Positions 8,390-30,438 of a stretch of DNA of 64,000 nt are shown here, piece by piece. A model generated the notes under the pieces. The model saw nothing but the letters and a program-made list of their open reading frames with translations, was not told the DNA's origin and made no database searches. This DNA is from Pseudomonadota bacterium (GTDB lineage: Bacteria > Pseudomonadota > Alphaproteobacteria > Rhodobacterales > Rhodobacteraceae), in the NCBI GenBank assembly GCA_020161655.1, contig JAIUPC010000012.1, positions 372,001 to 436,000 of the forward strand, written 5' to 3'. How positions within the stretch are numbered: the stretch's first letter is position 1; every line of letters begins with the position of its first letter. The position numbers and the translations under genes were made by a program.

Positions 8390-9100
8390 TCAAAGATCCG
8401 GCAGGCCAAGTTCAAGATAGTGAACCGCAAGCCGCACGGTCCCACCCGCAAAGTCTCCGCCAATGGCGTCGAGTTGCAGCATCTCGGGCGCGTAAAAGGT
8501 CATGGGCGCGGACAAAAGCCCCCGCACCCAGGACCCGCCCGAAAGACCGAGACCCGAGCCAAAGCGCCCCACAGCACCGGGATTGCCAAGCGACCACCCC
8601 GTCAAGGTCCCGGTGATCGGAGAGATCACCCGCCCGGTCACACCGACGACCATCGCATTCGACGGAATGACATAGCCGGTCAGTGAAACTGGACCCGCCG
8701 TCACGACATGGTCCGTCTCGACCGTCCGCATCGCCATCCCGGCATTATGCGAGGAGAGCGTCACCATCCCCTCGCGCCAGTCCGACCCGTCGAAGACCGC
8801 ACCCGCCCCTCGGTCGACAATATAGGCACGCCATCCCCTGAGCGGCTGGACAAAGTCCCAGCCGCCGTTCGTCCCGATGGCAATGGAGCCGTCACGCCCG
8901 CTCCAGGCATTCACCGCACCAAGGGGCACTGAATAGCAGGCGCCATCGACGACGAGAGTAGGCGGGATCGCCAAACTTTCGGATTGCAGGACGAGGTTCA
9001 CCAGCCCGTCGAGACGCACCAGCGCCTCGTTCACGGTCACATGCTTCTGCGCCTGAGCCGCCTGAACCAGGGGCAGGCCAAGCCGAGCGGTATTAGACAT
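8390..9100 (-). CDS. DUF2793 protein, putative GTA head-spike/fibre component
   Basis: Protein of 236 residues starting MSNTARLGLPLVQAAQAQKH, the typical DUF2793 opening (LGLP.v.aaQAQKHVT.NEAL) found in GTA and phage proteins. The N-terminal ~110 residues match the domain (WDFVQPLRGWRAYIVDRGAG). The remainder is a beta-rich, Gly/Thr-rich module suited to a fibre or binding tip. The start at 9100 overlaps the end of g15 by 8 bp (ATGTCTAA) and has GAGGA upstream. In R. capsulatus, proteins of this kind are linked to capsule-binding head spikes encoded at a separate locus. That role is inferred here, and a tail-associated function is equally possible. Confidence 0.75.
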   Translation of the reverse strand: MSNTARLGLPLVQAAQAQKHVTVNEALVRLDGLVNLVLQSESLAIPPTLVVDGACYSVPLGAVNAWSGRDGSIAIGTNGGWDFVQPLRGWRAYIVDRGAGAVFDGSDWREGMVTLSSHNAGMAMRTVETDHVVTAGPVSLTGYVIPSNAMVVGVTGRVISPITGTLTGWSLGNPGAVGRFGSGLGLSGGSWVRGLLSAPMTFYAPEMLQLDAIGGDFAGGTVRLAVHYLELGLPDL

Positions 9101-12100: not shown

Positions 12101-13001
12101 TCGGGCGCAACGTGCACTGCCCGCAGCGCAGATCGTTGCCGAACCAAGACACCACGAGCGACACCGAACCGCAGTTCGGCAACTCCTCCCCCAGTGCGTC
12201 GAGAGAACGTGCCAGATCGGTAACACCTCCTGGGGAATGCACATTGGCCGACACGCTGCGACCAAGCCCGTAGCTGTAGTGAACCGGCGTCGTCGCCAGC
12301 GTGTACTCTCCGGTCCCCGGTATCAGCGCCACCCCTTCGATGGCGAGGGTCAGGTCCGGTATCGCGTCGATCCCCTCGCCCTGCGCCGGGCGGAATACCT
12401 CGAAACTGAACTGCGGCACGCGGTTGCCATAGGGCGCAAGTGGCAGATCCTCGAAGACGACATAGGCGAGCCCGCGATAGGCCGGAGCCAGACCCGCACC
12501 CTCAACCGCCTCGATCTTCGCATCGGGCACCTGGTCCTCGCCGCCCCTGTAGACGCGCATCTGCACGTCCTTCAGCGAAATCTCCGTCCCATCCACCCAG
12601 ACGCGGCCAATGCTGGCGATCTCGCCTTCGCAAAGTGCCACGGCGAGGCTGACAAAGTAGCTGTGCTCGGTCACCTTCGGTTGCGACGGCGCACCCTTGC
12701 CGCCGCCGCTCGTCGTTGCGCGGTCAAGGAAGCGCGACGCCCAGACGATCTGCCCCGACACGCGCATCCGGCCCCAGACCTGGCCGATGGGTGCGCCCTC
12801 GCTGGCGCCGGTCAGGCGGAAGCGGTCGACCTTTCCGGTCTCGACTGCGCGCGATCCACCCCCCATCACGCGCTGGTCGATGACACGACCAAGGGTAGCC
12901 CCGACCGCACGCCCGATCACGGCCCCGGACAGCCCAAGGACCGATCCCCCGAAACCCGCGCCGAGCGAGGCACCGACGGCCGAAAGCACAATTGTCGCCA
13001 T
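9093..13001 (-). CDS. GTA baseplate megatron protein (g15, TIM-barrel domain)
   Basis: Largest GTA protein, 1302 residues, forming the central baseplate/tail-tip assembly that contacts and penetrates the recipient. Seen: a Gly-rich hydrophobic N-terminus (GASLGAGFGGSVLGLSGA) that could insert in a membrane; a glycoside-hydrolase-like TIM-barrel segment in the middle (DPLWADANVDFIGIDNYMP, WFTEYGCAAIDKGANQPN); and a phage tail-3 type region afterwards with repeated beta-rich stretches. Length matches the family. It starts 12 bp after the g14 stop and ends overlapping the DUF2793 gene by 8 bp. It is the last structural gene of the core operon and shows no frameshift. Confidence 0.95.
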   Translation of the reverse strand: MATIVLSAVGASLGAGFGGSVLGLSGAVIGRAVGATLGRVIDQRVMGGGSRAVETGKVDRFRLTGASEGAPIGQVWGRMRVSGQIVWASRFLDRATTSGGGKGAPSQPKVTEHSYFVSLAVALCEGEIASIGRVWVDGTEISLKDVQMRVYRGGEDQVPDAKIEAVEGAGLAPAYRGLAYVVFEDLPLAPYGNRVPQFSFEVFRPAQGEGIDAIPDLTLAIEGVALIPGTGEYTLATTPVHYSYGLGRSVSANVHSPGGVTDLARSLDALGEELPNCGSVSLVVSWFGNDLRCGQCTLRPKVEDNSFDGAGMPWRSGGIGRSQAEEIARDNGKPVYGGTPADAAVVEAIRNLGARGKSVVFYPFILMELLAGNGRNDPWTGAADQPVLPWRGRITQSVAAGQPGSVDGTATAEAEVAAFFGVAEPGDFGVAAGRVSYSGPAEWSYRRFILHYAHLCALAGGVGAFCIGSEMRGLTQIRGAGGTFPAVAAMRQLAADVRAILGPSVKVGYAADWSEYGGYQDGAGNLHYHLDPLWADANVDFIGIDNYMPTADWRDGAGHADAGWGSIYNLDYLKANIGGGEGYDWYYASDQERAAQIRTPITDGAFGEDWVWRIKDIKSWWENPHHDRFGGLKGPQTDWVPGSKPVWFTEYGCAAIDKGANQPNRFLDPKSAESGLPYQSNGRRDDLMQMQYLRATVEYWRDPVNNPVSEVYGGPMVDMSRAHVWAWDARPFPQFPNNRDLWADGANYARGHWLNGRTTAQPLANVVAEICAGSGVRDVDVAGLFGIVRGYSVQETGSGRSALQPLMLSYGFDALERDGALRFRMRDGVADAGIGQDDLAVGSETDGWIETTRATDADSVGRVRVSYVEAEGDYEARTVEAVHPAGDLQSVSQSEFALALTQAEAQRIAERWLTETRVARDGARFALPPSLGDIGVGDVVAIGAGVPKLYRIDRAEQAGAIGLEAVRVEPAVYVPSDEAEVAVAARTFVAPTPVAALFLDLPLMAGEEVPHAPHLAVAAQPWPGSVAVFSSDQDAGYTLNRLISSQAVIGQTESLMAPATGGVWDRSQPVRVKISGGSLSSVGVAQLLNGANLMAVGDGSSDGWELFQFANAELVAPDTYDLSHLLRGQTGTEAAGAAGWPVGSNVVLLNGAPTQIALAANARDLARHFRIGPSRRGYDDPSYTHVVEAFAGIGLRPYAPVHLKAVRLAGGDLSVSWIRRTRVGGDSWSGLDVPLGEAFEAYQVRVLAGSAILRENVVSQPRWTYAAAQITADGVVQSFEIHIAQLSDQFGPGPFARMVVNV

Positions 13002-13013
13002 CAGAAGGCTCCT

Positions 13014-13451
13014 TCAAGGAAATTCGAACCGCGCTGCGACCCGTCGCAGCCAGGGCGCCGACAGCGGGCTTTCGACGACCGAATGCCCGCTGTAAGCGTG
13101 AATGAACGTCGCCACCGGCGCGACCTCCGCGACGATGCCCAGATGCTTGGCCACCGCGTCATCGCGCATGCGGAACAAAAGCACCTGCCCCGGCGCCAGT
13201 CCGGCCTCCCGGTCCACCGGGTGAAGATGCCTGAGCGCGGCCTGCCACAGCCGCTCCATCCCTTCGGGCTCGCTCCAGTCGGCAGTATAGGCCGGCACCG
13301 CCTCCGGCTCCCTGCCAAAAAGCTCGCGCCAGATGCCACGGATCAGCCCAAGGCAATCGGTCCCCGCCCCCTTCGTCGCGGCCTGATGCCGGTAGGGCGT
13401 GCCGATCCAGCCACGCGCGGCCTCGACCGCCTGAACCCCATGCGCAGTCAT
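13014..13451 (-). CDS. GTA NlpC/P60 family peptidase (g14)
   Basis: Baseplate-associated cell-wall peptidase of 145 residues, expected to cut recipient peptidoglycan during DNA delivery. The NlpC/P60 catalytic Cys33 is seen in GTDCLGLIRGIW and the catalytic His103 in AKHLGIV; a further polar residue completes the triad in the following strand (FIHAYSG). The ATG overlaps the TGA of g13 (ATGA), the usual translational coupling in this operon. The function is taken from the established GTA gene order and family motifs. Confidence 0.93.
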   Translation of the reverse strand: MTAHGVQAVEAARGWIGTPYRHQAATKGAGTDCLGLIRGIWRELFGREPEAVPAYTADWSEPEGMERLWQAALRHLHPVDREAGLAPGQVLLFRMRDDAVAKHLGIVAEVAPVATFIHAYSGHSVVESPLSAPWLRRVAARFEFP

Positions 13452-14338
13452 CGCGAAAGGCTCCCGCCATCGTTCCGGCCGGCGCTCGTCGGGTAGGACA
13501 TCACCCAGTCCTCGCCGGGTATATGCGGAAAGCCGCGGAAATTGAGGAAGTTGGCGAACTTCAGACGACAGGTCTCCGCCCGCCGGTCACACCCCGCCTC
13601 GATCCGCACCATGTCACCCGCCGCGGGCACAGCGCCCAGCGACTGCCAAAGCTCCACTTCACGGCCTGACGCCCCACGCAGCCGGTCGTTCTTGACTGAC
13701 CCGACCAAACCGGCTGCCTTGCCGGACAGGACACGAAAGCGCCCCTTCTCGAACCAGCGATCCTCATAGCCGGCGAAAGACGCGAACCCGAACACCCGGC
13801 CATCCTCCACCGCCTCCACCGGACGCTCTTCCGCGTATCCGGGCTGATCCAGATCGAAACGGCAACGCCTGTCGCCAATTACCGCCGAACAGCGGGAATG
13901 ATAGATCATCCCCACCGGCTGGTTCAGCGCCTCGCTCAGCCCTCTGAGTTCGGCGGTGAAAGCCCCGCCCGTCCGCGTGATCTCCCCCAGCGTCCCCCGG
14001 AACTGGAGCACCCGCATTGCAGGATCGACCCAGTTCACCAGCCAGGCTTGCACCTCCGCCCCGTCATACCGGCCGGCGAGAATATCCTCCTCGACGATTG
14101 CATCGGACCTGAGGGCGCCGAAAGCCTCGGTATTGTCCACCGCAAGCCCGGTCGATTGCTGCAGCGCCTTTGCCGTCAGACCGCTGTCGGCGCGAAAGGT
14201 GATCCCCTCGAAGCTGAGGTCGCGGTCGTGATCAGTAAAGCCGAGCACCATCCCGTCCTTGCGCGTCACAGCAAAGGCCCGCGCCAAGGTCGTGGCCCCA
14301 CCGGCAAGATGGGTCTTCAGATCGTCTGGATAGCTCAT
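13448..14338 (-). CDS. GTA baseplate hub protein (g13, DUF2163)
   Basis: Tail hub protein of 296 residues (DUF2163/phage_BR0599 type). The C-terminal half contains the cysteine set CSAVIGDRRC followed by GCDRRAETC and FRGFPHIPGEDWV. In the R. capsulatus particle the equivalent protein holds an iron-sulfur cluster, and the cysteines seen here fit that. It begins overlapping the g12 stop (ATGA) and ends overlapping the g14 start. The N-terminal region (HLAGGATTLARAFAVTRKDG, LGFTDHDRDLSF) is typical of the family. Confidence 0.94.
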   Translation of the reverse strand: MSYPDDLKTHLAGGATTLARAFAVTRKDGMVLGFTDHDRDLSFEGITFRADSGLTAKALQQSTGLAVDNTEAFGALRSDAIVEEDILAGRYDGAEVQAWLVNWVDPAMRVLQFRGTLGEITRTGGAFTAELRGLSEALNQPVGMIYHSRCSAVIGDRRCRFDLDQPGYAEERPVEAVEDGRVFGFASFAGYEDRWFEKGRFRVLSGKAAGLVGSVKNDRLRGASGREVELWQSLGAVPAAGDMVRIEAGCDRRAETCRLKFANFLNFRGFPHIPGEDWVMSYPTSAGRNDGGSLSR

Positions 14339-14967
14339 AGCCGCACCTCGACCACAGGCACCTGCGGCACTTCCCCAGCCTGGAACGAGGCTACGGAGAC
14401 CTGGATGCTGTCGGTATCGAACCGCACCGGCACGTCGAACTCGAACCCGGCGGTCACACGCTCACCTTCAGCGGGCGCGCTCAGAAACAGGATCACACCG
14501 CTTTCGTAGTCCACGACGTAATGCACCGCCTCGGCCAGTTCGTCGCCCTGAAGCCCCACGCGCACCGTCCCTTGAACCGGCTTGGCAATCACCCGCCGCT
14601 CCGACGCAGCGCCCGAGGCATAGGTCTTTGACAGCTGGAACGACCGGGTCAGACCATCCCCTACGCCAACCTGCTGGTCCTCGTAGGTGATCGTCACCGA
14701 GGCGGCGCAGGACTTGTAATCCGCCCAGTCCTTCCAGCGGAACCCGTGCAACTGACCCCGGCGGGCTTCGAAGAACGCGATCAACTCTCCGATATCGTCA
14801 AGGCTCCGCAGGCTCAGCCCCGCGTCATAGCGCCGGCGCGACTGCGCCCAGGGCGTGTTGCGCTCCTCGAAACCGTTGGTCAGCTGCACGATCTCGGTGC
14901 GCCGCTCCGGCCCGCCGACCGAGCCGAAACTCAGCTTGGCCGGGAACCTTACGTCGTGAAATGCCAT
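14335..14967 (-). CDS. GTA distal tail protein (g12, DUF2460)
   Basis: Distal tail protein of 210 residues that joins tail tube and hub. The DUF2460 signature is visible: FHDVRFPAKLSFGSVGGPER at the start, ERNTPWAQSRRRYD and LHGFRWKDWADYKSC in the middle, and ISFEFDVPVRF-like strands near the end (AGFEFDVPVRFDTD). It lies 9 bp downstream of g11 and overlaps g13 by 4 bp. No anomalies. Confidence 0.95.
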   Translation of the reverse strand: MAFHDVRFPAKLSFGSVGGPERRTEIVQLTNGFEERNTPWAQSRRRYDAGLSLRSLDDIGELIAFFEARRGQLHGFRWKDWADYKSCAASVTITYEDQQVGVGDGLTRSFQLSKTYASGAASERRVIAKPVQGTVRVGLQGDELAEAVHYVVDYESGVILFLSAPAEGERVTAGFEFDVPVRFDTDSIQVSVASFQAGEVPQVPVVEVRL

Positions 14968-14976
14968 GCTTCGCCC

Positions 14977-15639
14977 TCACCTGTTCCTGTCGCCGCGCGC
15001 CAACGCCCGCGCCATCTGCGCCGCGATCTGGCTCTGGCTGCGGGCAAAACCCTGCACGTCCGGGGTGGTCACGTTCATCACGATGCTGACCGACCTGCCG
15101 CCGCCCCCCGCCTGCACGCCAAGCCGGCCATCGGCGCCACGCGCCAGCGGCATGATCGCCTCCGGCCCCGCCTCGCCCATCAGCCCGCGCCCATTCCGCA
15201 TCGGGAAAGTGGTCGGTGACGACACCACGCCGCCCTTGGCAAAGGGCATGACCCGGCCCTGCGCAAAGGTGCCGCCCTTCTCGAAGGGGAAAAGCCCGCT
15301 CAGCAGGCCGTTGACGCCATTCGCCACAGCGCCACCGAAAGCCTGCTGCACCGGCCGCATGGCGATGTTGTAGACGCTGTCCACCATCGTCTGCGCCACG
15401 GATTTCAGCGCATCCGACAGCTTCATCCCGTCGAAGACGAGGCCATCGAAGGCCCGCCTGAGCCCGCCACCGATGCTCAGGGACAGCGATGAAACCTCGC
15501 GCCCAGTGAACATCATGCTTTCGCGCATCCGGCCAAGTTCCGCATCAAAGGCCGCCGCCATCAGCTGCGCGCCGCCAAGCGACTGCTCAAGCGCCGCCGT
15601 CTGCTGCGCGAGGCTGTCGAGTCCGTCCGTCATTGCCAT
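14977..15639 (-). CDS. GTA tail tape measure protein (g11)
   Basis: Short tape-measure protein of 220 residues, consistent with the short siphophage-like tail of GTAs. The start at 15639 has GGAGGACGGG directly upstream; a second in-frame ATG lies 6 bp downstream. Residues 1-60 are helical (LAQQTAALEQSLGGAQLMAA). The middle holds the Gly-rich amphipathic stretch GGAVANGVNGLLSGLFPF. The tail has FAKGGVVSSPTTFPMRNG and GEAGPEAIMPLARG, which are characteristic of phage tape-measure C-termini. It sits 12 bp after g10.1. Confidence 0.93.
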   Translation of the reverse strand: MAMTDGLDSLAQQTAALEQSLGGAQLMAAAFDAELGRMRESMMFTGREVSSLSLSIGGGLRRAFDGLVFDGMKLSDALKSVAQTMVDSVYNIAMRPVQQAFGGAVANGVNGLLSGLFPFEKGGTFAQGRVMPFAKGGVVSSPTTFPMRNGRGLMGEAGPEAIMPLARGADGRLGVQAGGGGRSVSIVMNVTTPDVQGFARSQSQIAAQMARALARGDRNR

Positions 15640-15651
15640 CCCCGTCCTCCT

Positions 15652-15849
15652 TCATCTGTCCGGCGCAATCTTGTCAGGCCAGGCGCGTACCAGTTCGGCC
15701 AGCCGCCCCCGGCCAAGGGGCGCGGCGGCACCCGGATCGCCCAGCATAAACACCAGTTCCGCCGGCGTCAGCCGCCAGAACTCCTCGGGTCTAAGGCCAA
15801 GGCCGCCGATGCCGGCCCGCATCAACCCCGGCCAGTCGAAAGCGCTCAT
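15652..15849 (-). CDS. GTA g10.1, small tail assembly chaperone-like protein
   Basis: Protein of 65 residues (FDWPGLMRAGIGGLGLRPEE, FWRLTPAELVFMLGD), the rcc01693-type phage protein (DUF2376 family). By position between g10 and the tape measure it corresponds to the second tail-assembly chaperone of siphophages. It overlaps the end of g10 by 4 bp (ATGA). Unlike lambda G/GT it is a separate reading frame and no slippery fusion is needed. Confidence 0.9.
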   Translation of the reverse strand: MSAFDWPGLMRAGIGGLGLRPEEFWRLTPAELVFMLGDPGAAAPLGRGRLAELVRAWPDKIAPDR

Positions 15850-16166
15850 CGCGCCTCCGGCACCGTGAAAGCGCGCGCCAGAAGCTGTGCCGCCGCCTGC
15901 GCCGCGCCGACCGGGCCGCCGCCGATCTCCACGGCGACAAGGTCCGTCGCCTGCCCCGTCCAGCCACCACCCCTGAGGCCGGCAACCACCAGCATCAGCA
16001 CGTCCCGCGTGGAAAACCGGCCGGCCTCGAACCGCTCGACCAGTTCCACCAGCGTCCCGGACCCAAGCGCCGCCTCAAGCTCCGCCAGCGTCCCCAGCGT
16101 CAAACGAGCCTGATGTGGCACACCGTTCAGCGCGATCTCGACCTCACCGGCCCAGGGGTTCGCCAT
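15846..16166 (-). CDS. GTA g10, tail assembly chaperone-like protein
   Basis: Protein of 106 residues, starting MANPWAGEVEIALNGVPHQA. The rest follows the GTA-gp10 family pattern, with TLGTLAELEAALG, an acidic helix, and DVLMLVVAGLRGGGW. Likely a chaperone for tail assembly rather than a particle component, judged by position between tail tube (g9) and tape measure (g11). It shares one base with the g9 stop (TGATG) and overlaps g10.1 by 4 bp. Confidence 0.92.
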   Translation of the reverse strand: MANPWAGEVEIALNGVPHQARLTLGTLAELEAALGSGTLVELVERFEAGRFSTRDVLMLVVAGLRGGGWTGQATDLVAVEIGGGPVGAAQAAAQLLARAFTVPEAR

Positions 16167-16579
16167 CAGATCGCCGTGAAGCTCAGGGCGCCGGCCGAGG
16201 CGAGCGAAAGCTCGTAGGTCGCCTCGCCATTGTAGCTGCCGGCATATTCGATCGCGGTGATCTGGAACGGCCCTTCGACGATGCCGAAATCCGGGATGAT
16301 GACCTGGAACTGCTCCACCGTCCCGGCGAAGAAGATCTGACGCGCCCGCTCATCAGTCGCGCTGTCGACAAAGACGCCGGAACCGGAGACCGAGGCCGAA
16401 CGCACCCCCGCGCCGCCCAGAAGCTCGCGCCATCCGCCTTGGCTTTCAAGGTTGGTGACATCAACCGTTTCGGCGTTGAAGCTGATCCGCGTCGCACGCA
16501 GGCCCGCGATGGTGGTGAATTGCCCGCCCCCGTTGAGGTCGAGCTTGACAAGAAGGTCCTTGCCATTCTGCGCAGCCAT
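16166..16579 (-). CDS. GTA major tail tube protein (g9)
   Basis: Major tail protein of the TP901-1 family, 137 residues. The start at 16579 (MAAQNGKDLLVKLDLNG) is preceded by GGAGAATTCTC, a good ribosome-binding site. An in-frame start at 16615 would add 12 residues without one. Family features: ATRISFNAETVDVTNLESQG, WRELLGGAGVRSASVSGSG and VFVDSATDERARQIFF. The 90-bp gap to g8 is one of only a few gaps in the operon and may carry an internal promoter or processing site for this abundant protein. Confidence 0.95.
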   Translation of the reverse strand: MAAQNGKDLLVKLDLNGGGQFTTIAGLRATRISFNAETVDVTNLESQGGWRELLGGAGVRSASVSGSGVFVDSATDERARQIFFAGTVEQFQVIIPDFGIVEGPFQITAIEYAGSYNGEATYELSLASAGALSFTAI

Positions 16580-16669
16580 GAGAATTCTCCGATTTGTGCA
16601 TTCTGACGGCAGCAAATCAACTTATGCAGCCGCGAGTTGTTCGATTAATGCAGTAAGGCGAATGCCGCC

Positions 16670-17077
16670 TCACGCCTCCACGCGCGCCCTGAACGTCAGG
16701 TCGATACGCCGGATATCGGCCTTCTCGACCCGCCGTGCCCGCGCCGACAGGAACCAGAGGCCCACGAGCCTGCCCCGCGCCAGCACCAGATCGGCATCGG
16801 TCAGCGCGTCGGACACCGCCGAGGCGACCGCTTTGGCGCTCTGGAACCCCGCCTGATCCGTCACCACCGAGACGGTGAACTCATGCACCGCGCCGCGCCC
16901 GACCTGGTCAGAGGCATCGCGCACGTCCTCCGGCCCGAGCGAGACATAGGTTCCCGTCACGGTCCCGGGCGGGACAGAGTCGTAGATGGCACCGGCGACA
17001 AGCGCCTCCAGCGCGGTATCGGCCACCAATTTCTGATAAACGGCAGCCTGAAGCGCGGCCCCGACAGAATAGCTCAT
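16670..17077 (-). CDS. GTA tail terminator protein (g8, DUF3168)
   Basis: Protein of 135 residues starting MSYSVGAALQAAVYQKLVAD, a DUF3168 tail-completion/terminator protein that caps the tail and joins it to the head. Also seen: AIYDSVPPGTVTGTYVSLG and a C-terminal IDLTFRARVEA. The ATG at 17077 overlaps the g7 stop by 4 bp, which decides against the upstream in-frame start at 17428 inside g7. Positioned as in other GTAs. Confidence 0.94.
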   Translation of the reverse strand: MSYSVGAALQAAVYQKLVADTALEALVAGAIYDSVPPGTVTGTYVSLGPEDVRDASDQVGRGAVHEFTVSVVTDQAGFQSAKAVASAVSDALTDADLVLARGRLVGLWFLSARARRVEKADIRRIDLTFRARVEA

Positions 17078-17412
17078 GCCACCACCTCCTCGACGGCGGA
17101 GCAGAGAAGATACCGCCCCTCCGCATCCGCCTCGGCGACACCCGTGATCCGATATGTCCTCAGCCCATCGCGAAAGCGCTGGTCCGGCTTCGGCCGCGAC
17201 GGCGCGCCAAAAGGCGACCCGCGCACCGTGATCCGGCAGGCCACCGACGACATCGTCGCGAACTCCGCTGCCCGTTCCCGCGCCGCACCCTGCTGGATCG
17301 CCGCCCAGACGACGCCGCGCACCACCCAGGTCAGGGTGGAGCCGCCGGCGCCGTCCGGCACCCGCAGCGCTTCTTCCAGGATCAGCCGCCTGTTCAACCT
17401 CGGCGCCGTCAT
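17074..17412 (-). CDS. GTA head closure/stopper protein (g7)
   Basis: Phage head-tail joining protein of 112 residues. Motifs: LNRRLILEEALRVPDGAGGS, TWVVRGVVWAAI and RTYRITGVAEADAEGRYL, as in the SPP1 gp16/HK97 gp10 head-closure fold family. It is linked by 4-bp ATGA overlaps to both g6 and g8. Confidence 0.93.
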   Translation of the reverse strand: MTAPRLNRRLILEEALRVPDGAGGSTLTWVVRGVVWAAIQQGAARERAAEFATMSSVACRITVRGSPFGAPSRPKPDQRFRDGLRTYRITGVAEADAEGRYLLCSAVEEVVA

Positions 17413-18005
17413 GCAGCACCTCCGCCAAGCACCCGCACCGTGCGCCAGCGCTCGATCAGCGCGGTCACGCCAAAGGGTATCCCCCGCGCCGCGCCCGCGT
17501 CATGACGTTCTTCGTGATAGGTCGCGGCAAGCAGGAACACCGCCTGCGCCAGATCGGCGGGCACATCGCTCCAGGAGGGCCCGAACCCGGCGCTGAACCG
17601 GATCTCGATCCGCCCGCCCTGCGGCACTCCCGGCAGGACCGTTCCCGCCGCCGCGATCCTTGGCCGCTGCATGTCCGCCACCAGCCGGTAGCGCGCCGGC
17701 GGGATCAGCTCTGCCACCCCGTCCCGGTCAAGTACCGTGACCGAGGCCAGCGCCGCCACCGGCGCGACCGGCAGGGTCTGGCTGTCGGGCCAGCGCCAGT
17801 CGGGAAGCGTCAGAAGAAATGCCCGCTCGATCAGCGCCTTGCCGGTCCGCCCCTCGACCGCCGCCATCGCGGCACGAAGGTAGCTTTCCGCCAACGCATC
17901 CTGCACGCCGTCATCGGCAAAACCGGTGCCGAGCCGCAGATGGTCCTTGAACTCTGCCACCGGCAGCGCCCCTTGCGGCACCGGCATCACTTCGCTCAGC
18001 ATCAT
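17409..18005 (-). CDS. GTA head-tail adaptor protein (g6)
   Basis: Adaptor protein of 198 residues that binds the portal, related to the phage gp6/phiE125 gp8 connector family. Seen: VAEFKDHLRLGTGFADDGVQ, AAMAAVEGRTGKALIERAF and FSAGFGPSWSDVPADLAQAV. Two adjacent ATGs (18005, 18002) follow CGGAG with good spacing. A start at 18065 would run into the hairpin region and is less likely. A 157-bp gap with a long inverted repeat separates it from the capsid gene g5. Confidence 0.93.
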   Translation of the reverse strand: MMLSEVMPVPQGALPVAEFKDHLRLGTGFADDGVQDALAESYLRAAMAAVEGRTGKALIERAFLLTLPDWRWPDSQTLPVAPVAALASVTVLDRDGVAELIPPARYRLVADMQRPRIAAAGTVLPGVPQGGRIEIRFSAGFGPSWSDVPADLAQAVFLLAATYHEERHDAGAARGIPFGVTALIERWRTVRVLGGGAA

Positions 18006-18043
18006 GGAAAACTCCGAAATTTCGCGCCCTCCCCCAATAGGAA

Positions 18044-18124
18044 CGGGCGCGGGCCAGCCCCGCATTGCTCGGACGGAGGGAGCAGCTAGACAACACGGGG
18101 GGTAATGAAGTTGGCCCGCGCCCG
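18044..18124 (-). repeat. 13-bp inverted repeat between g5 and g6
   Basis: Perfect arms CGGGCGCGGGCCA (18044-18056) and TGGCCCGCGCCCG (18112-18124) are separated by 55 bases. The dyad lies in the g5-g6 gap in the operon direction, directly after the capsid gene. It has no T-run, so it is more likely an mRNA stabiliser or processing hairpin than a classic terminator. It could protect the capsid transcript and lower downstream expression. Confidence 0.65.
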
Positions 18125-18162
18125 CATTCCGGGGCGTTTCCGCCTCGGCCTGCGCGCCGCCG

Positions 18163-19359
18163 TCAGGAGACGGCGAACTTCAGAAGCTTGATCGCGGCGA
18201 AATCGCTCACATCGCCGCCCACGCGCTTCGACGCGTAGAAGAGGACATGCGGCTTGGCCGAGAAGGGGTCACGCAGCACCCTGAGATCGGGGCGCTCCGC
18301 AACGGTGTAGCCGTTGTGGAAATCGCCGAAGGCGATGGCATGGGCATCGGCGGCGATGTCGGGCATGTCCTCGGCAACCAGCACCGCATAGCCCATCAGC
18401 CGCGCCGGTTCGCCCGCCTGAAGGCCGTCGGACCAGAGGAAGCGGCCATCGGCGTCCTTCATCTTGCGCACGGCACCCGCGGTCTTCGAATTCATCACGA
18501 AAGCCGCGTTGGCCCGGTATTCGGCATTCAGCGCATAGACGAGGTCGATGATCGCGTCCGAGGCGTTGGTGGCGGCAAAGTCGCCCGCAGCACCAGTCGC
18601 CACATAGCCAAGCGAACCCCAGGCCCAGACGTTATTGGCGACCTTGCTATGGGCAAGGAAGCCCTTCGGCTTGTCGATGCCGTCACCACTCACGAAGGCG
18701 CCCGCCTCGGCACGGGCGAACTTGTCGGCGATGCGCTCGGCCAGCCAGCCCTCGACGTCGAAGGCGCTGTCGTCCAGCAGGCGCTGGCTCGCCTTCGGCA
18801 TCGCCGAAAGCTCATGCAGCGGGATCGAGATGCGGTCGATCTGCGGCGTGCCCGTCTCGGTCAGCGCCGCCGTCTCCGTCGCCCAGCCCGAGCCGAGATC
18901 GGTGTGATCGACGAGGACATCGAACGAGGTCGCCTCGACATTGACCACATTGGCGATGCTGCGGATCGACGAGGTCGATTTCAGCACGCCGCGAATGCGG
19001 TCCGAGGTCTGCGGATCGACGAGGAACCCGCCATCGGCATTGACCTGGGTGTTGAGAGCCTTGCCCTCCAGCACCAGCCCGCGAAGGGCGTCATCGTCGC
19101 CGGTGCGAAGATAGGCGCCGAAGGCCTTCTGATGCGGCAGCACCAGGTCGGCGGCGGTGGAAAGCGCCGGACGCCCGGCAGTGACAGATTTGCGATCCAG
19201 CATGGTCAGTCGGTCTTCCTGTTGTTTGAGCCTGGTAGTCATGTCGTCCTGAAAGCCCTTGAACTCGCTCAGGAAACCCTGAAGCGCGGACTTCACTTCC
19301 TCGGCCGGAGCGCCGGACACGCCTTCCCCGGCCCGAGCCTTCGTCTCGGTCGTCTTCAT
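18163..19359 (-). CDS. GTA major capsid protein (g5, HK97 fold)
   Basis: HK97-family capsid protein, 398 residues from the ATG at 19359, which has GAGGTG about 9 bases upstream. The annotated open frame begins with GTG at 19368. The N-terminal ~110 residues form a helical scaffold-like delta domain (KSALQGFLSEFKGFQDDM, LKQQEDRLTMLDRKS) that would be cut off by the g4 protease. The mature capsid region follows, with LVLPHQKAFGAYLRTGD and NADGGFLVDPQTSDRIRG. It is expected to be the most abundant GTA protein. It sits between the protease and the g5-g6 hairpin. Confidence 0.96.
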   Translation of the reverse strand: MKTTETKARAGEGVSGAPAEEVKSALQGFLSEFKGFQDDMTTRLKQQEDRLTMLDRKSVTAGRPALSTAADLVLPHQKAFGAYLRTGDDDALRGLVLEGKALNTQVNADGGFLVDPQTSDRIRGVLKSTSSIRSIANVVNVEATSFDVLVDHTDLGSGWATETAALTETGTPQIDRISIPLHELSAMPKASQRLLDDSAFDVEGWLAERIADKFARAEAGAFVSGDGIDKPKGFLAHSKVANNVWAWGSLGYVATGAAGDFAATNASDAIIDLVYALNAEYRANAAFVMNSKTAGAVRKMKDADGRFLWSDGLQAGEPARLMGYAVLVAEDMPDIAADAHAIAFGDFHNGYTVAERPDLRVLRDPFSAKPHVLFYASKRVGGDVSDFAAIKLLKFAVS

Positions 19360-19397
19360 ACCCATCACCTCATGTCAGGGGTTGCGTTCTGGGGGCG

Positions 19398-19961
19398 TCA
19401 GCGCCGCCCCGCCAAGTCCCGCCGCGCTTCCTCGAAAAGCGCCGCCAGTTCACCCAGCACCGCCTCGGGCGCGGCACTCTTGGCGCCGACCCGCGCCTCG
19501 GGCAGCATCGGGAAGGTGACAAGCGACACCTCCCAAAGCTCCACCTCGCGCAAGAGCCGCTGGCCCTTGGCATCCTTCTCCGCCGTGATCGTGCGGTAGC
19601 CGATCGACAGCCCGTCGATCGCCCCGGCCGCGACCAGCGCCGCCGCCTCGCGGCCCTTCTCGACCTCGGTCAGGATGCGGCCCTTGACGCGCAGGCCGCG
19701 GCCATCCTCGGAAATCTCGTCCCAGACGCCGATGGGCTGCGCCGGGTCATGCTGCCAGAGCATCCTGACCACGCGCCCCTCGCGCTTCAGCCGGTCCAGC
19801 GACTTCGCATAGGCCCCCGCCATGACGACATCGCCGCCCTGATCTGTGAGGCCGAAAAAAGAGGCATAGCCCTCGATCCGGCAGCCGTCCGTCACGGCGA
19901 TATCCTCGCCCAGCCGGCAGAACTTGGTCTCCAGCCCATAGTCGTTCATCATCCGCCTCAT
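19398..19961 (-). CDS. GTA prohead protease (g4, HK97 family)
   Basis: Prohead maturation serine protease of 187 residues or slightly fewer. Seen: CRIEGYASFFGLTDQGGDVV, the catalytic His in LWQHDPAQPIGVWDEI, and the catalytic Ser in AGAIDGLSIGYRTI, the typical HK97 protease pattern. Three in-frame ATGs occur (19961, 19952, 19949). A GAGGCGG between the first and the others favours 19952, so the exact start is uncertain. It is followed by g5, whose N-terminal domain is the expected substrate. Confidence 0.93.
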   Translation of the reverse strand: MRRMMNDYGLETKFCRLGEDIAVTDGCRIEGYASFFGLTDQGGDVVMAGAYAKSLDRLKREGRVVRMLWQHDPAQPIGVWDEISEDGRGLRVKGRILTEVEKGREAAALVAAGAIDGLSIGYRTITAEKDAKGQRLLREVELWEVSLVTFPMLPEARVGAKSAAPEAVLGELAALFEEARRDLAGRR

Positions 19962-19962
19962 C

Positions 19963-20199
19963 CTATTTCGGCCCGAATTCCAGCAGCGACTGCACCGCCT
20001 GGCTCAGGATCACGCCGACGACCCCGAAGACCGTCATCCAGAGCCGCTTTTCCACGCCGATGATCATCGCCTCGATCCGCTCCAGCCGCTTCTCGACCGT
20101 CCCGAACTGCAGGGCCATGATCCTCTCGGTCGCATCGAAGCGGTGCTCATGGGCGCATTCGAACGGCTCCTTCAGGTAGCGCGAACCTGCCGCCGCCAT
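19963..20199 (-). CDS. GTA g3.5, small head-formation protein
   Basis: Protein of 78 residues starting MAAAGSRYLKEPFECAHEH. It has an Arg/Glu-rich helical middle (TVEKRLERIEAMIIGVEKRL) and a C-terminal hydrophobic helix (WMTVFGVVGVILSQAVQSLL). It matches the rcc01685-type GTA protein that lies between portal and protease in RcGTA. The start at 20199 lies 2 bp after the g3 stop, which decides against the longer in-frame start at 20289. Confidence 0.88.
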   Translation of the reverse strand: MAAAGSRYLKEPFECAHEHRFDATERIMALQFGTVEKRLERIEAMIIGVEKRLWMTVFGVVGVILSQAVQSLLEFGPK

Positions 20200-20201
20200 G
20201 C

Positions 20202-21374
20202 TCACGCCCCGTCCGCCAGCGGCGGCAAGCCAAGGATCGCCCGCTTTTCTGCGTCCGTCAGGAACAACGCCTCGCCGACCCGCTTCCACTGCTGGTCACG
20301 CTCGGCGGCCAGCGCCGGCACCTGGTCAAGGTCGGGGCGAAGCTCCACCTGCTCACCCAGATGGGTCGAAAGCCAGTAGGCCACCGCCGCCGTCACCCGC
20401 GTGGCCAATGGCAGCACCGTCAGACGGTAGAACGCGCGGTTCGCCTCCTGATAATTGGCGTAGGTCGCATCGCCCGGAATGCCCATCAGCATCGGCGGCA
20501 CCCCGAAGGCCACCGCGATCTCCCGCGCCGCCGCCTCCTTGGTCTTCTGGAACTCCATGTCCGACGGGCTGAACCCCATCGGCTTCCAGTCGAGCCCGCC
20601 TTCCAGCAGCATCGGCCGCCCGGCATTGCGGGCCCCCTGATGATGCATCTCCATCTCGTGGATCAGCCGGTCATACTGGTCCGGCGACAGGGCCCCCTGC
20701 CCATCCGCACCCTTGTAGAGGATGGCCCCCGAGGGCCGCGCCGCATTGTCGAGAAGCGCCTTCGACCAGGCCGAGGCGGAGTTATGGACATCGACCGCCA
20801 CTGCCGCCGCCTGCATCGGCGAAAGACCGTAGTGGTCGTCCTGCGGATGGAAGCTCCTGATATGACAGATCGGATCGACCGGCCCCGCCATGTCGAACCG
20901 GTGCTTCCGCCCGCCGACCGTGTAGTCATAGGCCACCGGCCAGCCATCGGCGCCGGGGACCAGTGACATCCGGTCCGACCGCAAGACATGCAGCTCCGCC
21001 GGCAGCCCCGAACCGCCGACCGCCTCGATATAGCCATTGCCGCTCAGAAGCATCTGGCCGTAGAGCGCCTCAAAGAGCTCTGCCCGCCCCTGCGCCGGGT
21101 TGGGCCGCCGCATCAGCTCGATCAGCGGATGCACGTCATAGCGCCGGTCGCGGTCCTGACAGACGAGCGGCAGCGCCGCCGCCGCTTCGGCCACCAGCTT
21201 CACCGCGCGGAACCCCACCGGATTGCCGGAAAACCCGGTCCGCGTCAGGCTCGCCGTGTCACGCGGGCTCCAGGCCACCCGGCCCGACGAGCCCCAGGCG
21301 ATCACCCGCCCGGTAGCCGAAGCCTTCTGCTCCGGGACCGCCGCTTCGGCCCGCCGGAAGATGTTCCATGCCAT
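20202..21374 (-). CDS. GTA portal protein (g3, HK97 family)
   Basis: Portal protein of 390 residues from the ATG at 21374 (MAWNIFRRAE), preceded by GAGGAG. The dodecameric portal is the DNA entry and exit channel of the head. Family motifs: VWSPRDTASLTRTGFSGNPV-like opening, AYDYTVGGRKHRFDM, IRSFHPQDDHYGLSPMQAAA and MGIPGDATYANYQEANRAFY. A 123-bp gap with strong hairpins separates it from g2. Confidence 0.96.
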   Translation of the reverse strand: MAWNIFRRAEAAVPEQKASATGRVIAWGSSGRVAWSPRDTASLTRTGFSGNPVGFRAVKLVAEAAAALPLVCQDRDRRYDVHPLIELMRRPNPAQGRAELFEALYGQMLLSGNGYIEAVGGSGLPAELHVLRSDRMSLVPGADGWPVAYDYTVGGRKHRFDMAGPVDPICHIRSFHPQDDHYGLSPMQAAAVAVDVHNSASAWSKALLDNAARPSGAILYKGADGQGALSPDQYDRLIHEMEMHHQGARNAGRPMLLEGGLDWKPMGFSPSDMEFQKTKEAAAREIAVAFGVPPMLMGIPGDATYANYQEANRAFYRLTVLPLATRVTAAVAYWLSTHLGEQVELRPDLDQVPALAAERDQQWKRVGEALFLTDAEKRAILGLPPLADGA

Positions 21375-21430
21375 CGAATTTCTCCTCGCTCGGCCACGAC
21401 GGCAGAAGGCGCGAGAAGCACCCTCATTCA

Positions 21431-21489
21431 TCTTGCCGGAAATACCTTCGGGGGGAGGCGCGTCAGCGCCGGGGGGCTGAAGGCCCCCC
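21431..21489 (-). repeat. Hairpin/repeat element between g2 and g3
   Basis: Read along the operon, a stem GGGGGGC/GCCCCCC (21471-21489) is followed by GGCGC/GCGCC with a 4-nt loop (21457-21470). Then comes CCGAAGGTATTTCCGGCAAGATGAATG, here cited by position (21424-21450), which also occurs at 29.84-29.87 kb in the other orientation. It is a terminator-like intergenic element inside the GTA operon. Confidence 0.65.
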
Positions 21490-21497
21490 CGGTCCGG

Positions 21498-22841
21498 TCA
21501 CAGTCCCCGGATCTGCGGCCGCAGGATGCGTGCCGCCGGCTCCACGATCAGCTCGGTCAGCGCCCAGACCAGCGCATCCACCCGGTCGGGCGAGCCCTTG
21601 CCATCATAGCCGTGGATCGTCATCCGGCACATCTGGTCCTCCAGGGGCCCAAGCCCGCGCACATGCGCCACCCGCCCCTGTTCGTAAAGTGCCGCCACCG
21701 GCTCGGCCCGCGCCACCTTCCCGCGCGAGGCGTGGACAGCGCGGAACGGCACCGTCGGATCGACCTGCCGGATCACGCTTTCCACCATCAGCCCGCCCTG
21801 ATTGACCTCGGCCACCAGCCGGTCGGCGCCATGCCGCCCCATCGCCGCAATTGCCGCCCGCGCCCAGGCATCGGGCCGCGCCGCGCTGACCGTTGCATCC
21901 TCCAGCACCCAGGCCCGCCATTCGGACGGCGGCCCCTCGGTCAGTGCGCCGACAACGACGATACCGCATTCGTCCGACCCCTCATGCCCCGTGGTCGGCG
22001 GATCGACCGCCACCACGACCCGGCTCAGCCGCTCAGGCGCAGCCGACCGCGCCGCCTCCAGCATCGCCGAAGTCCAGAGCGCCCCGTCGGCATCCTCCAG
22101 CAAGACACCGTCCAGCTCCTGCCGCCCCGTCCGCGTCCCGGCATAACGCGCCCGCACCTCCTCGAGGAAGGATGCGGCGAGATAGGCCCGGTTGGCCTCG
22201 GTCGGCGCCTGCGTCACCACCGTCGAGGGGTTCTTCAGGATCGCCTTCAGCGCGCCCACATTCTTCGGCGTCGTCGTCACAACCTGGCGCGGATCGCGGC
22301 CCAGCCTGAGCGCGAACTGGAGCATGTCCCAGGCCTCGCCCGCCTTCGGCCATTTCGCCAGCTCATCCGCCCAGGCCGCATCGAACTGAGGGCCCCGAAG
22401 ACTGTCCGGGTCATGCGCGGAATAGACCTCCGCGATGGCCCCGTTCGGCCAGACGAGCCGCCGCTTCGTCGCCTCCCACACCGGCTTCCTGTCGGGCGGG
22501 GAACAGGCCATGATGCCGCTGTCGCCAAAGATCATCACCTTCTGCACCTGCTCCAGCGTCTCACCGACCAGCGCCACCCGCTTCGACCGTCCGGGGTCCA
22601 TCGGCCTTGCCCCCTCGACCTCCGCCCTCACCCATTCCGACCCGGCGCGGGTCTTGCCGGCACCGCGCCCCCCCATGATGATCCAGGTCTTCCAGACCCC
22701 CTCGGGCGGCAACTGGTGCGGCAAGGCCCAGAACTCGAAGAGCCAGGGCAGCGCCATCAACGCCGCATCGCTCAGGCCGCCCAGAAACTCATCGACCGTC
22801 TCCGGCGTCGCGGAGGCAAGCCAGGCGGCGGCAGATTTCAT
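21498..22841 (-). CDS. GTA terminase large subunit (g2)
   Basis: DNA-packaging motor and nuclease, 447 residues from the ATG at 22841. An in-frame start at 22910 would deepen an already long overlap. Walker A GGRGAGKT is at residues 57-64. The nuclease-domain aspartates lie in VVVAVDPPTTGHEGSDECG. The C-terminus carries KGSPDRVDALVWALTELI, characteristic of terminase family 6. In GTAs this enzyme packages random host DNA by headful. The first part overlaps the end of g1 by 53 bp, as occurs in other GTA clusters. Confidence 0.96.
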   Translation of the reverse strand: MKSAAAWLASATPETVDEFLGGLSDAALMALPWLFEFWALPHQLPPEGVWKTWIIMGGRGAGKTRAGSEWVRAEVEGARPMDPGRSKRVALVGETLEQVQKVMIFGDSGIMACSPPDRKPVWEATKRRLVWPNGAIAEVYSAHDPDSLRGPQFDAAWADELAKWPKAGEAWDMLQFALRLGRDPRQVVTTTPKNVGALKAILKNPSTVVTQAPTEANRAYLAASFLEEVRARYAGTRTGRQELDGVLLEDADGALWTSAMLEAARSAAPERLSRVVVAVDPPTTGHEGSDECGIVVVGALTEGPPSEWRAWVLEDATVSAARPDAWARAAIAAMGRHGADRLVAEVNQGGLMVESVIRQVDPTVPFRAVHASRGKVARAEPVAALYEQGRVAHVRGLGPLEDQMCRMTIHGYDGKGSPDRVDALVWALTELIVEPAARILRPQIRGL

Positions 22842-23115
22842 CCCGCGCGGCTCCGAAGTCGAGCGCGTAGTCATAGACGATGCCGGCGTCGTCTTTGCGG
22901 AGTTTTGCAATCCTGGCCCTTTCCTCTACCGCAAGCTGATAGGCCGCGCGCATGTCGCGGATCTGCTTGGCCATCTCCCTGGCATCGCCCATATCGCCCG
23001 CCCTCAGGCGGCGCAGCGTCTCACCGAGTTCATTGGCAATGTCATTGACAAGCTCCCTGACGCTCAGCACCTCGGCGCTGGCGTCGATCTCTTCCTCCGA
23101 AATCCTCGTGAACAT
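22789..23115 (-). CDS. GTA small terminase-like protein (g1)
   Basis: First gene of the GTA operon, 108 residues from the ATG at 23115 (MFTRISEEEIDASAEVLSVR), with GGGAGGCGGG upstream. An alternative in-frame start at 23148 gives 119 residues. The sequence is strongly helical (ANELGETLRRLRAGDMGDAR, QIRDMRAAYQLAVEERARI), in line with a DNA-binding/oligomerising small terminase. GTA versions lack specific cos/pac recognition, which is known for the family and not visible here. It overlaps g2 by 53 bp and is preceded by a leader hairpin and the operon promoter. Confidence 0.9.
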   Translation of the reverse strand: MFTRISEEEIDASAEVLSVRELVNDIANELGETLRRLRAGDMGDAREMAKQIRDMRAAYQLAVEERARIAKLRKDDAGIVYDYALDFGAARDEICRRLACLRDAGDGR

Positions 23116-23158
23116 GCAGTCTGGCCCGCCTCCCATGCCGGTCCGCACGAGCGAAACG

Positions 23159-23192
23159 AAAAAGCGGCCTCAAGGGTCGCCCCCCGGCCGCT
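23159..23192 (-). terminator. Terminator-like hairpin in the GTA leader
   Basis: In the operon direction, a perfect 7-bp stem AGCGGCC/GGCCGCT with a 16-nt loop is followed by TTTTT and then CGTTTCG. It lies between the promoter (-10 at 23219-23224) and the g1 start at 23115, i.e. inside the untranslated leader. This layout is that of an attenuator or an intrinsic terminator needing antitermination. Confidence 0.65.
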
Positions 23193-23218
23193 CTCCCACT
23201 TCTTCTAGCTTGCCTGAA

Positions 23219-23247
23219 GGTATATCCACGGCCGTTCGCAGAGTCAA
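23219..23247 (-). promoter_or_regulatory. Promoter of the GTA operon
   Basis: On the minus strand TTGACT (23242-23247) and TATACC (23219-23224) are separated by exactly 17 bases, a near-consensus housekeeping-type promoter about 100 bp upstream of g1. The AT-rich upstream stretch (23248-23300, with TTTGATAAAACACGATTATT) could hold an activator site such as that of GafA. That last point is inferred. Confidence 0.7.
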
Positions 23248-23330
23248 GAATAATCGTGTTTTATCAAATGGTTGGCGAGCGATCCAATAACCTTTCGTTA
23301 ACCTCCGCCAGACCCTGCGCCGGCCAGACC

Positions 23331-23756
23331 TTACTCGCTCAGCGTCTCACCACTACCGCCAAGGTCCGAAGGGAAATCGCGGAACTTCGGCAGTCCGTCC
23401 TTCATCGGCAGTACCGTCTGGGCATAGTTCACATGCACACCCGGCTTGAACGCCATGCCCGGCACGGTCGCCGCATAGACATCGGTGATGCCCCATACCG
23501 GATGGTCATTCATCAGATGCCCGCCACAATCCTTGCAAAACATCCGCACCGAGTTTTCGGTCTTGGCAAACCGCCCGATCCGGTCCGCGCCCTTGGTGAT
23601 CTCCACATTCTCCGGCTTCCAGAGCGTAAAGGCATTCACCGGCCCCGCCGACCAGGACCGGCAGGAGGCGCAATGGCAATAACCCATCGCCAGAGGATCG
23701 CCCGAAACCTCAAGCGCAACATTCCCGCAAAAACATGCTCCACTATGGCTCGTCAT
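23331..23756 (-). CDS. GFA family (glutathione-dependent formaldehyde-activating type) protein
   Basis: Small zinc protein of 141 residues with the GFA/CENP-V fold. Zinc ligands are visible: Cys8/Cys10 (ACFCGNV), Cys27/Cys29/Cys32 (YCHCASC) and Cys74/Cys77 (MFCKDCGGHL). Some members help condense formaldehyde with glutathione, but many have unknown substrates, so only the family is assigned. It lies upstream of the GTA promoter on the same strand and downstream of mltG. A GC-rich hairpin in its leader (23783-23800, stem GGCGGGA/TCCCGCC) separates it from mltG. Confidence 0.9.
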   Translation of the reverse strand: MTSHSGACFCGNVALEVSGDPLAMGYCHCASCRSWSAGPVNAFTLWKPENVEITKGADRIGRFAKTENSVRMFCKDCGGHLMNDHPVWGITDVYAATVPGMAFKPGVHVNYAQTVLPMKDGLPKFRDFPSDLGGSGETLSE

Positions 23757-30012: not shown

Positions 30013-30438
30013 ATGCCGCTTTATGAGCATGTCCTCATCGCGCGTCAGGACCTTTCCAACGCGCAGGCCGAAGGCCTCATCGAACATTTCGGCACCGTCC
30101 TCGCGGACAATGGCGGCAAGGTCGTCGAAAGCGAGTACTGGGGCGTCAAGACGATGGCCTACAAGATCAACAAGAACCGCAAGGGTCACTACGCCTATCT
30201 CCGCACGGACGCGCCCTCGGCCGCCGTCGCCGAGATGGAGCGTCTGGCTCGCCTCCATGACGACGTGATGCGCGTCATGTCGCTCAAGGTCGAAAAGCAC
30301 GAGGAAGGCCCCTCGGTGCAGATGCAGAAGCGCGACGAGCGTGGTGAGCGCGGCGACCGTGGGGATCGTGGCGACCGCGGTGATCGTGGTGACCGCGGCG
30401 ACCGCGGGGATCGTGGCGACCGCCGCGAACGCCGTTGA
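30013..30438 (+). CDS. rpsF: 30S ribosomal protein S6 with GDR-repeat tail
   Basis: Ribosomal protein S6 of the small-subunit platform, binding S18. The protein has 141 residues. The opening [20 protein letters not shown] and the segment [20 protein letters not shown] are standard S6. After about residue 108 the protein carries a low-complexity tail of consecutive Gly-Asp-Arg triplets ending DRRERR. S6 tails are often modified or disordered, but this run is unusually regular. It is the first gene of the rpsF-rpsR-rplI operon with an AAAGGAG ribosome-binding site. Confidence 0.97.

Follow-up and report, generated by a model that had tools for sequence, protein, structure and literature searches.

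Comparison of GTA loci across the Rhodobacterales points to a conserved leader in front of the cluster, in which a promoter, a start block and two successive hairpins precede g1, the gene for the GTA small terminase subunit. The first hairpin and the U-run behind it are well supported as a leader terminator by strong comparative evidence. We propose that the GTA cluster is probably held off by this terminator, with GafA acting as a polymerase-bound antiterminator of the Q/AlpA type.

Anatomy of the leader in a Defluviimonas-like genome

The window, the whole 64,000-nt stretch analysed here, belongs to a Defluviimonas-like Rhodobacteraceae genome (G000) and carries an RcGTA-type cluster on its minus strand (Table 1). 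The closest named terminase matches come from Defluviimonas denitrificans (84%) and from other Rhodobacteraceae and Defluviimonas (approximately 81%). Within the cluster, NF058675, NF048004, TIGR02217, TIGR02218, TIGR02219 and others match above cut-off, and g1 has no Pfam or NCBIfam match. Upstream, the GFA-family gene lies between yceG and the leader in the window; by eye, yceG appears directly upstream of the leader in several relatives, so the neighbourhood varies and the leader stays. Elsewhere in the window, overlapping 9-, 18- and 27-bp tandem repeats at 30336-30432 fall in the C-terminal tail, a repetitive RGD sequence, of ORF 30013-30438, which probably encodes ribosomal protein S6.

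Table 1. Features of the GTA leader and its surroundings in the window
Feature	Position	Strand	Basis or remark
IHF-like site CAACCATTTGATA, upstream of promoter	23262..23274	-	perfect match to YAANNNNTTGATW
-35 element TTGACT	23242..23247	-	sequence; TTGAC in 79/80 leaders
17-nt spacer	23225..23241	-	CGAACG (23238-23233) and 8-nt palindrome ACGGCCGT (23235-23228)
-10 element TATACC	23219..23224	-	sequence
Conserved block CAAGCTAGAAGA	23201..23212	-	at probable transcription start
Leader core, 86 nt	23127..23212	-	covariance model R1, 86.3 bits
Leader hairpin 1	23153..23202	-	7-bp GC core; extra pairs in loop; stem extended downwards
T5 run of terminator	23159..23163	-	first T is last base of stem
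Leader hairpin 2, CUCGUGC/GCAUGGG	23132..23151	-	adjoins likely g1 ribosome-binding site
g1, GTA small terminase subunit	22789..23115	-	ORF; tblastn to relatives, which point to ATG 23115 as the start
GTA large terminase (start codon uncertain)	21498..22910	-	PF03237, PF17289
Rest of RcGTA-type cluster	9093..21431	-	portal, protease, capsid, connector and tail proteins; also tape measure, distal tail protein, hub, peptidase, megatron
GFA-family (glutathione-dependent formaldehyde-activating) gene	23331..23756	-	same strand as, and upstream of, GTA leader

The -10 element sits 104-109 nt upstream of the g1 ATG, which is in frame with the ORF. Downstream of the start block, the 7-bp stem AGCGGCC/GGCCGCT (23192-23186 / 23169-23163, minus strand), with its arms 16 nt apart, forms the core of hairpin 1. 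Folding of 23205-23150 yields one long hairpin of -31.3 kcal/mol (z = -3.86, 0/200 shuffles as stable), the lower stem of which also pairs the U-tract, and the hairpins of five relatives give z values from -3.80 to -6.57, again with 0/200 shuffles as stable for each. Over the whole 136-nt region the fold is unremarkable (z = -1.0, 33/200 shuffles as stable). The preliminary description of this DNA had placed a TTGACT-N17-TATACC promoter upstream of g1 and, between the two, a perfect 7-bp stem followed by a T-run. Both are found as described (promoter at 23247-23219, T5 at 23163-23159, minus strand), the stem now being the core of a longer hairpin spanning 23202-23153. The conservation in close relatives by which that description proposed to check the hairpin is likewise borne out, since in most leaders the hairpin and U-run are kept, covary and lie at a fixed distance from the promoter.

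A generic consensus scanner run on the window reported neither element: the promoter was missed because TATACC lacks the T required at position 6, and the terminator because its 16-nt loop exceeds the scanner limit. Generic promoter and terminator scans do not detect the leader elements, and the evidence that these are not chance occurrences is therefore comparative.

Conservation of the promoter and the start block

The leader set comprised 80 sequences, namely the window and 79 of the 80 named GTA terminase loci; L027, which has no recognisable block, is outside all leader counts. In 80/80 leaders the block is preceded, at a distance of 33-36 nt (35 nt in 51, 34 nt in 27), by a TTGA(C/T) box. 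When spacings of 16-18 were allowed and TA was given a bonus, the best -10 hexamer was found at spacing 17 in 79/80 leaders; 67 of the 69 leaders listed have a -10 that starts with TA, the commonest forms being TATACC (19) and TAGAAA (11). Within the spacer, CGNNCG occurs exactly 3 nt after the -35 element in 65/80 leaders, compared with 9.4/80 expected anywhere in shuffled spacers. The spacer, with its CGAACG and palindrome, is a candidate loading site for the C-terminal part of GafA. The promoter-plus-block pattern has a single occurrence in this genome.

Further upstream lies the IHF-like site, for which YAANNNNTTGATW served as the IHF consensus in the comparison. Sites with at most one mismatch are present in 35/80 leaders versus approximately 1.8 expected from mononucleotide shuffles, and in 32 of these 35 the site is positioned 58-64 nt upstream of the block. 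The R. capsulatus leader has no IHF-like site (its best candidate has 4 mismatches). In R. capsulatus SP108 (L059), where g1 is 324 bases long, the distance from the start of the block to the g1 ATG is 95 nt; 324 bases is also the length published for R. capsulatus g1 (PMC6854486). According to PMC6363796, the -10, the transcription start site and GafA binding all fall inside a probe covering 76-125 nt upstream of g1. Because the L059 block lies inside this probe, we consider it the probable start site. A pause element at TGCTAGAAG was also considered and set aside as speculation only, the TG and the A being lost in many leaders (CAAGC, GCTGG).

The leader across Rhodobacterales genomes

A covariance model, R1, was built from 50 sequences with 26 pairs. 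R1 finds the leader in 80/81 sources at E 0.1, 50 of these having trained it, and matches 166/292 Rhodobacterales genomes at E 0.001 with one match each. Specifically, in this genome the leader scores 86.3 bits and the runner-up place 23.2 bits (E 0.08). In a sample of 289 Alphaproteobacteria, R1 has two matches, both inside the family: the window's genome and one further member. A GTA-type terminase, called by a match at E 1e-60, is present in 280/292 Rhodobacterales genomes. Among the 150 places listed for the leader and the 150 for the terminase, 117/117 genomes that have both show the leader on the same strand as the GTA large terminase and 293-410 nt upstream of it. Additionally, 45 viral-database contigs were retrieved by a 23-base pattern, and in 44/45 the leader lies 294-465 nt upstream of a GTA-type terminase, the 45th ending too early to tell. 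The element fronts a GTA cluster wherever the neighbourhood could be checked. The window leader found no match in 50,697 phage records and the L059 leader none in 72,556 plasmid records (one query each). Taken together, the comparison establishes the promoter, the fixed block, the hairpin, the U-run and their position before GTA clusters as features of the sequences.

A leader match is also found in G020, G142 and G163, three of the 12 genomes in which no terminase reached E 1e-60; the GTA clusters there have perhaps been lost or broken, leaving these leaders as remnants.

Covariation of the two hairpins

Two alignments were examined. A1 holds 50/81 sequences, awkward or incomplete leaders being omitted; 95.2% of its cells pair, compared with 46-59% in slid versions, and two-sided change is seen in 8/26 pairs, which 0/500 shuffles reach. 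A3 holds 46/51 sources, mostly more distant rows, and its input included 40 model-positive genomes and 10 of 20 further loci picked for a visible hairpin; L117, L118, L122, L126 and L128 did not match. A3, whose alignment was made with the model and is therefore biased in its favour, shows two-sided change in 21/26 pairs, with 112 such cells versus 29 in shuffles (0/500 shuffles reaching this). Hairpin 1 covaries in both alignments. For hairpin 2, 98.3% of cells are paired in A1 with no two-sided change, and 88.5% in A3 with two-sided changes in 7/7 pairs. Three positions of the lower stem have G-U as their most frequent pair, and because such pairs persist, a structure at the RNA level is favoured over a DNA dyad; a DNA-level palindrome is accordingly disfavoured.

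The sequence of hairpin 2 (CUCGUGC/GCAUGAG type) is highly conserved, and hairpin 2 possibly serves translational control of the small terminase. A boxA-like reading of CGCTCGTGC was considered, but this stretch is more readily accounted for by its place in hairpin 2, of which it forms the 5' arm. The lower stem of hairpin 1 may help pull the RNA out of the polymerase, or may serve the full-length message.

Evidence for a leader terminator

Hairpin 1 combines a GC-rich stem with a U-rich tract at once behind it, the make-up of an intrinsic (Rho-independent) terminator, and a hairpin stands directly behind the block in 70/80 leaders. A terminator score computed with a formula of the d'Aubenton-Carafa type exceeds 0 in 75/80 leaders, compared with 0/32 shuffles (8 leaders, 4 shuffles each), and reaches 24.2 in the window. 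TTTT is present in 48/50 A1 sequences. At A1 column 56, T is found in 49/50 sequences, and its partner is able to pair in just 5/50, which indicates that this U is not kept for pairing.

A separate scan for terminator-like hairpins from -500 to -150 of the terminase finds one in 71/80 named relatives on the sense strand versus 12/80 on the antisense strand. The same scan in 28 other Alphaproteobacteria, those with fetched loci among 46 non-family genomes having a terminase, gives 2 sense versus 6 antisense. A further 20 Rhodobacterales loci were drawn from 33 genomes with a terminase place but no listed model place; here 13 hairpins are sense and 2 antisense, and 7/20 loci are without a terminator. 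Fourteen of these 20 are model-negative, 8 of them with a hairpin match, 7 of which lie at the leader position; the other six are weak model matches (G046, G059, G087, G187, G212 and G270, E 4e-5 to 7e-4), 5 of them with a hairpin match.

Some leaders have lost the terminator. The Gemmobacter leaders L019, L025 and L062, and also leader L202, keep the GCTAGAAGA block and have lost the T-run or the hairpin, as seen by a score below 0 in the first three and by eye in L202. These four leaders represent successive natural losses, which could be set against GTA regulation to look for a correlation. Because some GTA-bearing members are without a recognisable hairpin or T-run although DUF6456 is nearly universal, the terminator is not essential everywhere.

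A proposed model of leader termination and GafA antitermination

According to the model that we favour, a near-consensus promoter of the housekeeping type would drive transcription of the GTA cluster, and within a few nucleotides after initiation the RNA would form the intrinsic terminator hairpin with its U-run, releasing most polymerases after approximately 55-60 nt. Upon GafA production, the GafZ-like domain at the C-terminus of the protein (DUF6456) would load onto the spacer of the promoter and onto the block transcribed first, and GafA would stay with RNA polymerase past the leader terminator, allowing g1 and the rest of the cluster to be transcribed. Here we infer both termination in vivo and its bypass by GafA, and antitermination by GafA is the favoured step on the basis of homology, as the GafA C-terminus belongs to the GafZ family, and of the Caulobacter work. 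A GafA-type DUF6456 protein (an ORF of 401 aa) is encoded in this genome, and the family is present in 291/292 Rhodobacterales genomes, which makes a presence/absence link between leader and GafA uninformative.

The anatomy of the leader narrows the choice of mechanism. From the probable start to the hairpin there are only about 10 nt, too few to hold a riboswitch, an aptamer or a competing helix, and no leader peptide is conserved; what remains is a protein acting on the polymerase at the promoter. The preliminary description had proposed post-initiation control by attenuation, antitermination or polymerase modification. The terminator that this proposal called for is supported by the comparison, the anatomy speaks against attenuation, whether by refolding of the RNA or by a leader peptide, and of the three mechanisms polymerase-bound antitermination is the one that the anatomy appears to favour, a step that leans on homology and on the findings in Caulobacter. 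In the Caulobacter GTA promoter, a near-consensus -35 was found to remove the dependence on GafYZ (PMC11150451). By analogy, the TTGAC promoter here may need a post-initiation brake, for which the leader terminator would be the obvious candidate, with the caveat that in Rhodobacterales a promoter is not necessarily strong because its -35 resembles the consensus. A bolder version of the model, which we hold to be possible and quite tentative, has the promoter active in many or all cells, the on/off decision lying wholly after initiation, a short terminated leader RNA of approximately 55-60 nt that most cells would produce continually and that is possibly functional, and GafA acting on the spacer and start block as a Q-like antiterminator and not as an activator.

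Comparison with known antitermination systems

The locus has two hallmarks of the Q/AlpA/GafZ type, in that a terminator, judged by its sequence, lies between the promoter and the controlled genes, and a cognate protein of an antiterminator family (DUF6456) is encoded in the genome. In a lambda-type late promoter with Q, a promoter, an antiterminator site in the spacer and a leader terminator are combined. The terminator here is much closer to the start site than in lambda, and the likeness is one of layout only. A likeness to lambda-type Q is also drawn in PMC11150451 and PMC7969949.

The nearest parallel is the GafY/GafZ/IHF system of Caulobacter crescentus with terGTA, which governs the same kind of cluster and places a terminator between the promoter and most of it (PMC11150451). 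GafZ corresponds to the C-terminal part of GafA, within the same activator family (ibid.), and DUF6456 was also detected in the control genome of Caulobacter vibrioides. The same paper describes antitermination by GafZ, for which an element between -35 and -10 is the putative loading site, and gives evidence that GafZ travels with the polymerase and bypasses terminators. IHF belongs to the Caulobacter system (PMC11150451), and many Rhodobacterales leaders have the IHF-like site upstream (35/80, as above). Likewise, GafZ has a single target in Caulobacter (PMC11150451), in parallel with the one occurrence of the promoter-plus-block pattern in this genome. The two systems also differ. In Caulobacter, the terminator is situated behind the first gene, outside the leader, and is built of three GC-rich direct repeats of 150 bp; the -35 there reads AATCAT, and the start codon is at +251 (PMC11150451). 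In contrast, the Rhodobacterales have a TTGAC -35, a compact intrinsic terminator approximately 10 nt after the probable transcription start site, and GafA as a fusion. No terGTA-type repeats after g1 were found between 9973 and 30336 with Tandem Repeats Finder, which can miss copies less than about 70% alike.

Similarly, the AlpA/alpBCDE locus of Pseudomonas aeruginosa has a binding element in the promoter spacer (a candidate here) and an intrinsic terminator just upstream of the first gene, and its lysis programme is switched on in a subset of cells, as with GTA (PMC7969949, PMC9371919). ppGpp is reported to matter in both systems (for RcGTA, PMC11150451). Unlike in the AlpA system, GafA binding and bypass are predicted here, and the likeness concerns the layout of the locus, not the sequence or fold of AlpA and GafA.

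Alternative explanations

A real terminator could also be a constitutive brake that lowers leaky GTA expression, with GafA raising initiation far enough to overcome the brake and leaving the polymerase unchanged. The U-run, the hairpin scan and the terminator score serve this reading equally well, and the published R. capsulatus model of recruitment through omega (PMC9638019) speaks for it and counts against GafA as an antiterminator; in the same source, GafA-C binds a fragment containing the -10, the -35 and the transcription start site. However, GafZ, the counterpart of GafA, is a demonstrated antiterminator with a putative loading element between -10 and -35 (PMC11150451), and the spacer here carries a conserved motif at a fixed place. 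The Caulobacter authors themselves suggest that antitermination might be an activity of GafA that has so far been overlooked, and that GafZ may also aid the polymerase in crossing the untranslated region (PMC11150451). We therefore regard a purely constitutive brake as unlikely. Still less probable, in our judgement, is that the leader is kept as a 5' UTR structure acting in mRNA stability, in processing by RNase or in the translation of g1, the T-run being incidental. The covariation of the lower stem and of hairpin 2 fits such a structure, as does L202, in which by eye a complementary lower stem is kept and the T-run is gone, and the covarying lower stem that pairs the U-tract could indeed serve RNA stability or processing instead. 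Against it stand the U at a mostly unpaired column in 49/50 sequences and the positive terminator score in 75/80 leaders.

Two further readings are very improbable. The hairpin might end the transcript of an upstream gene, and a GFA-family gene does lie upstream on the same strand. Yet the hairpin is downstream of the conserved promoter at fixed spacing, and 14/80 leaders, R. capsulatus included, have a second terminator-like hairpin, some of them weak, before the promoter. Moreover, in L029 the nearest upstream ORF (120 aa) is divergent and the co-directional one ends approximately 500 nt earlier, and the leader is conserved; on the divergent ORF and the second hairpins this reading was rejected. 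Classical attenuation, in which a leader peptide or a small-molecule-sensing RNA would switch the terminator, is just as hard to credit. An ATG inside the block in 49/80 leaders would suit it, but this start is lost in 31/80, the resulting ORFs range from 5 to 82 aa, and the frame is not conserved past the first residues. With a start codon in just 49/80 and no conserved frame or length, a leader peptide or ribosome-mediated attenuator was rejected. An RNA sensor, for its part, would have to fit into the short stretch before the hairpin, and no Rfam family matches the window leader or the leaders of 4 relatives at gathering score; a lax Rfam search gave three sub-threshold, implausible matches.

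Novelty and implications

The preliminary description knew of no such leader element in GTAs, and a search of open-access literature did not find this leader described. For Caulobacter, however, antitermination of a GTA cluster had already been published (PMC11150451), with the demonstrated terminator behind the first gene. What appears to be new is a Q/AlpA/GafZ-like control of the GTA cluster with the terminator in a compact leader RNA common to much of the order. As a practical outcome, R1 provides a compact single-copy marker for the GTA loci of Rhodobacterales.

Which cells sacrifice themselves for GTA particles, and how GafA works, are long-standing questions. The conserved leader terminator provides a definite switch that can be deleted, and from it GafA is predicted to act as an antiterminator. 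If this is true, promoter reporters would be read differently, because a reporter placed downstream of the leader responds to initiation and termination alike, and both GTA systems would be united under one phage-like late-gene logic.
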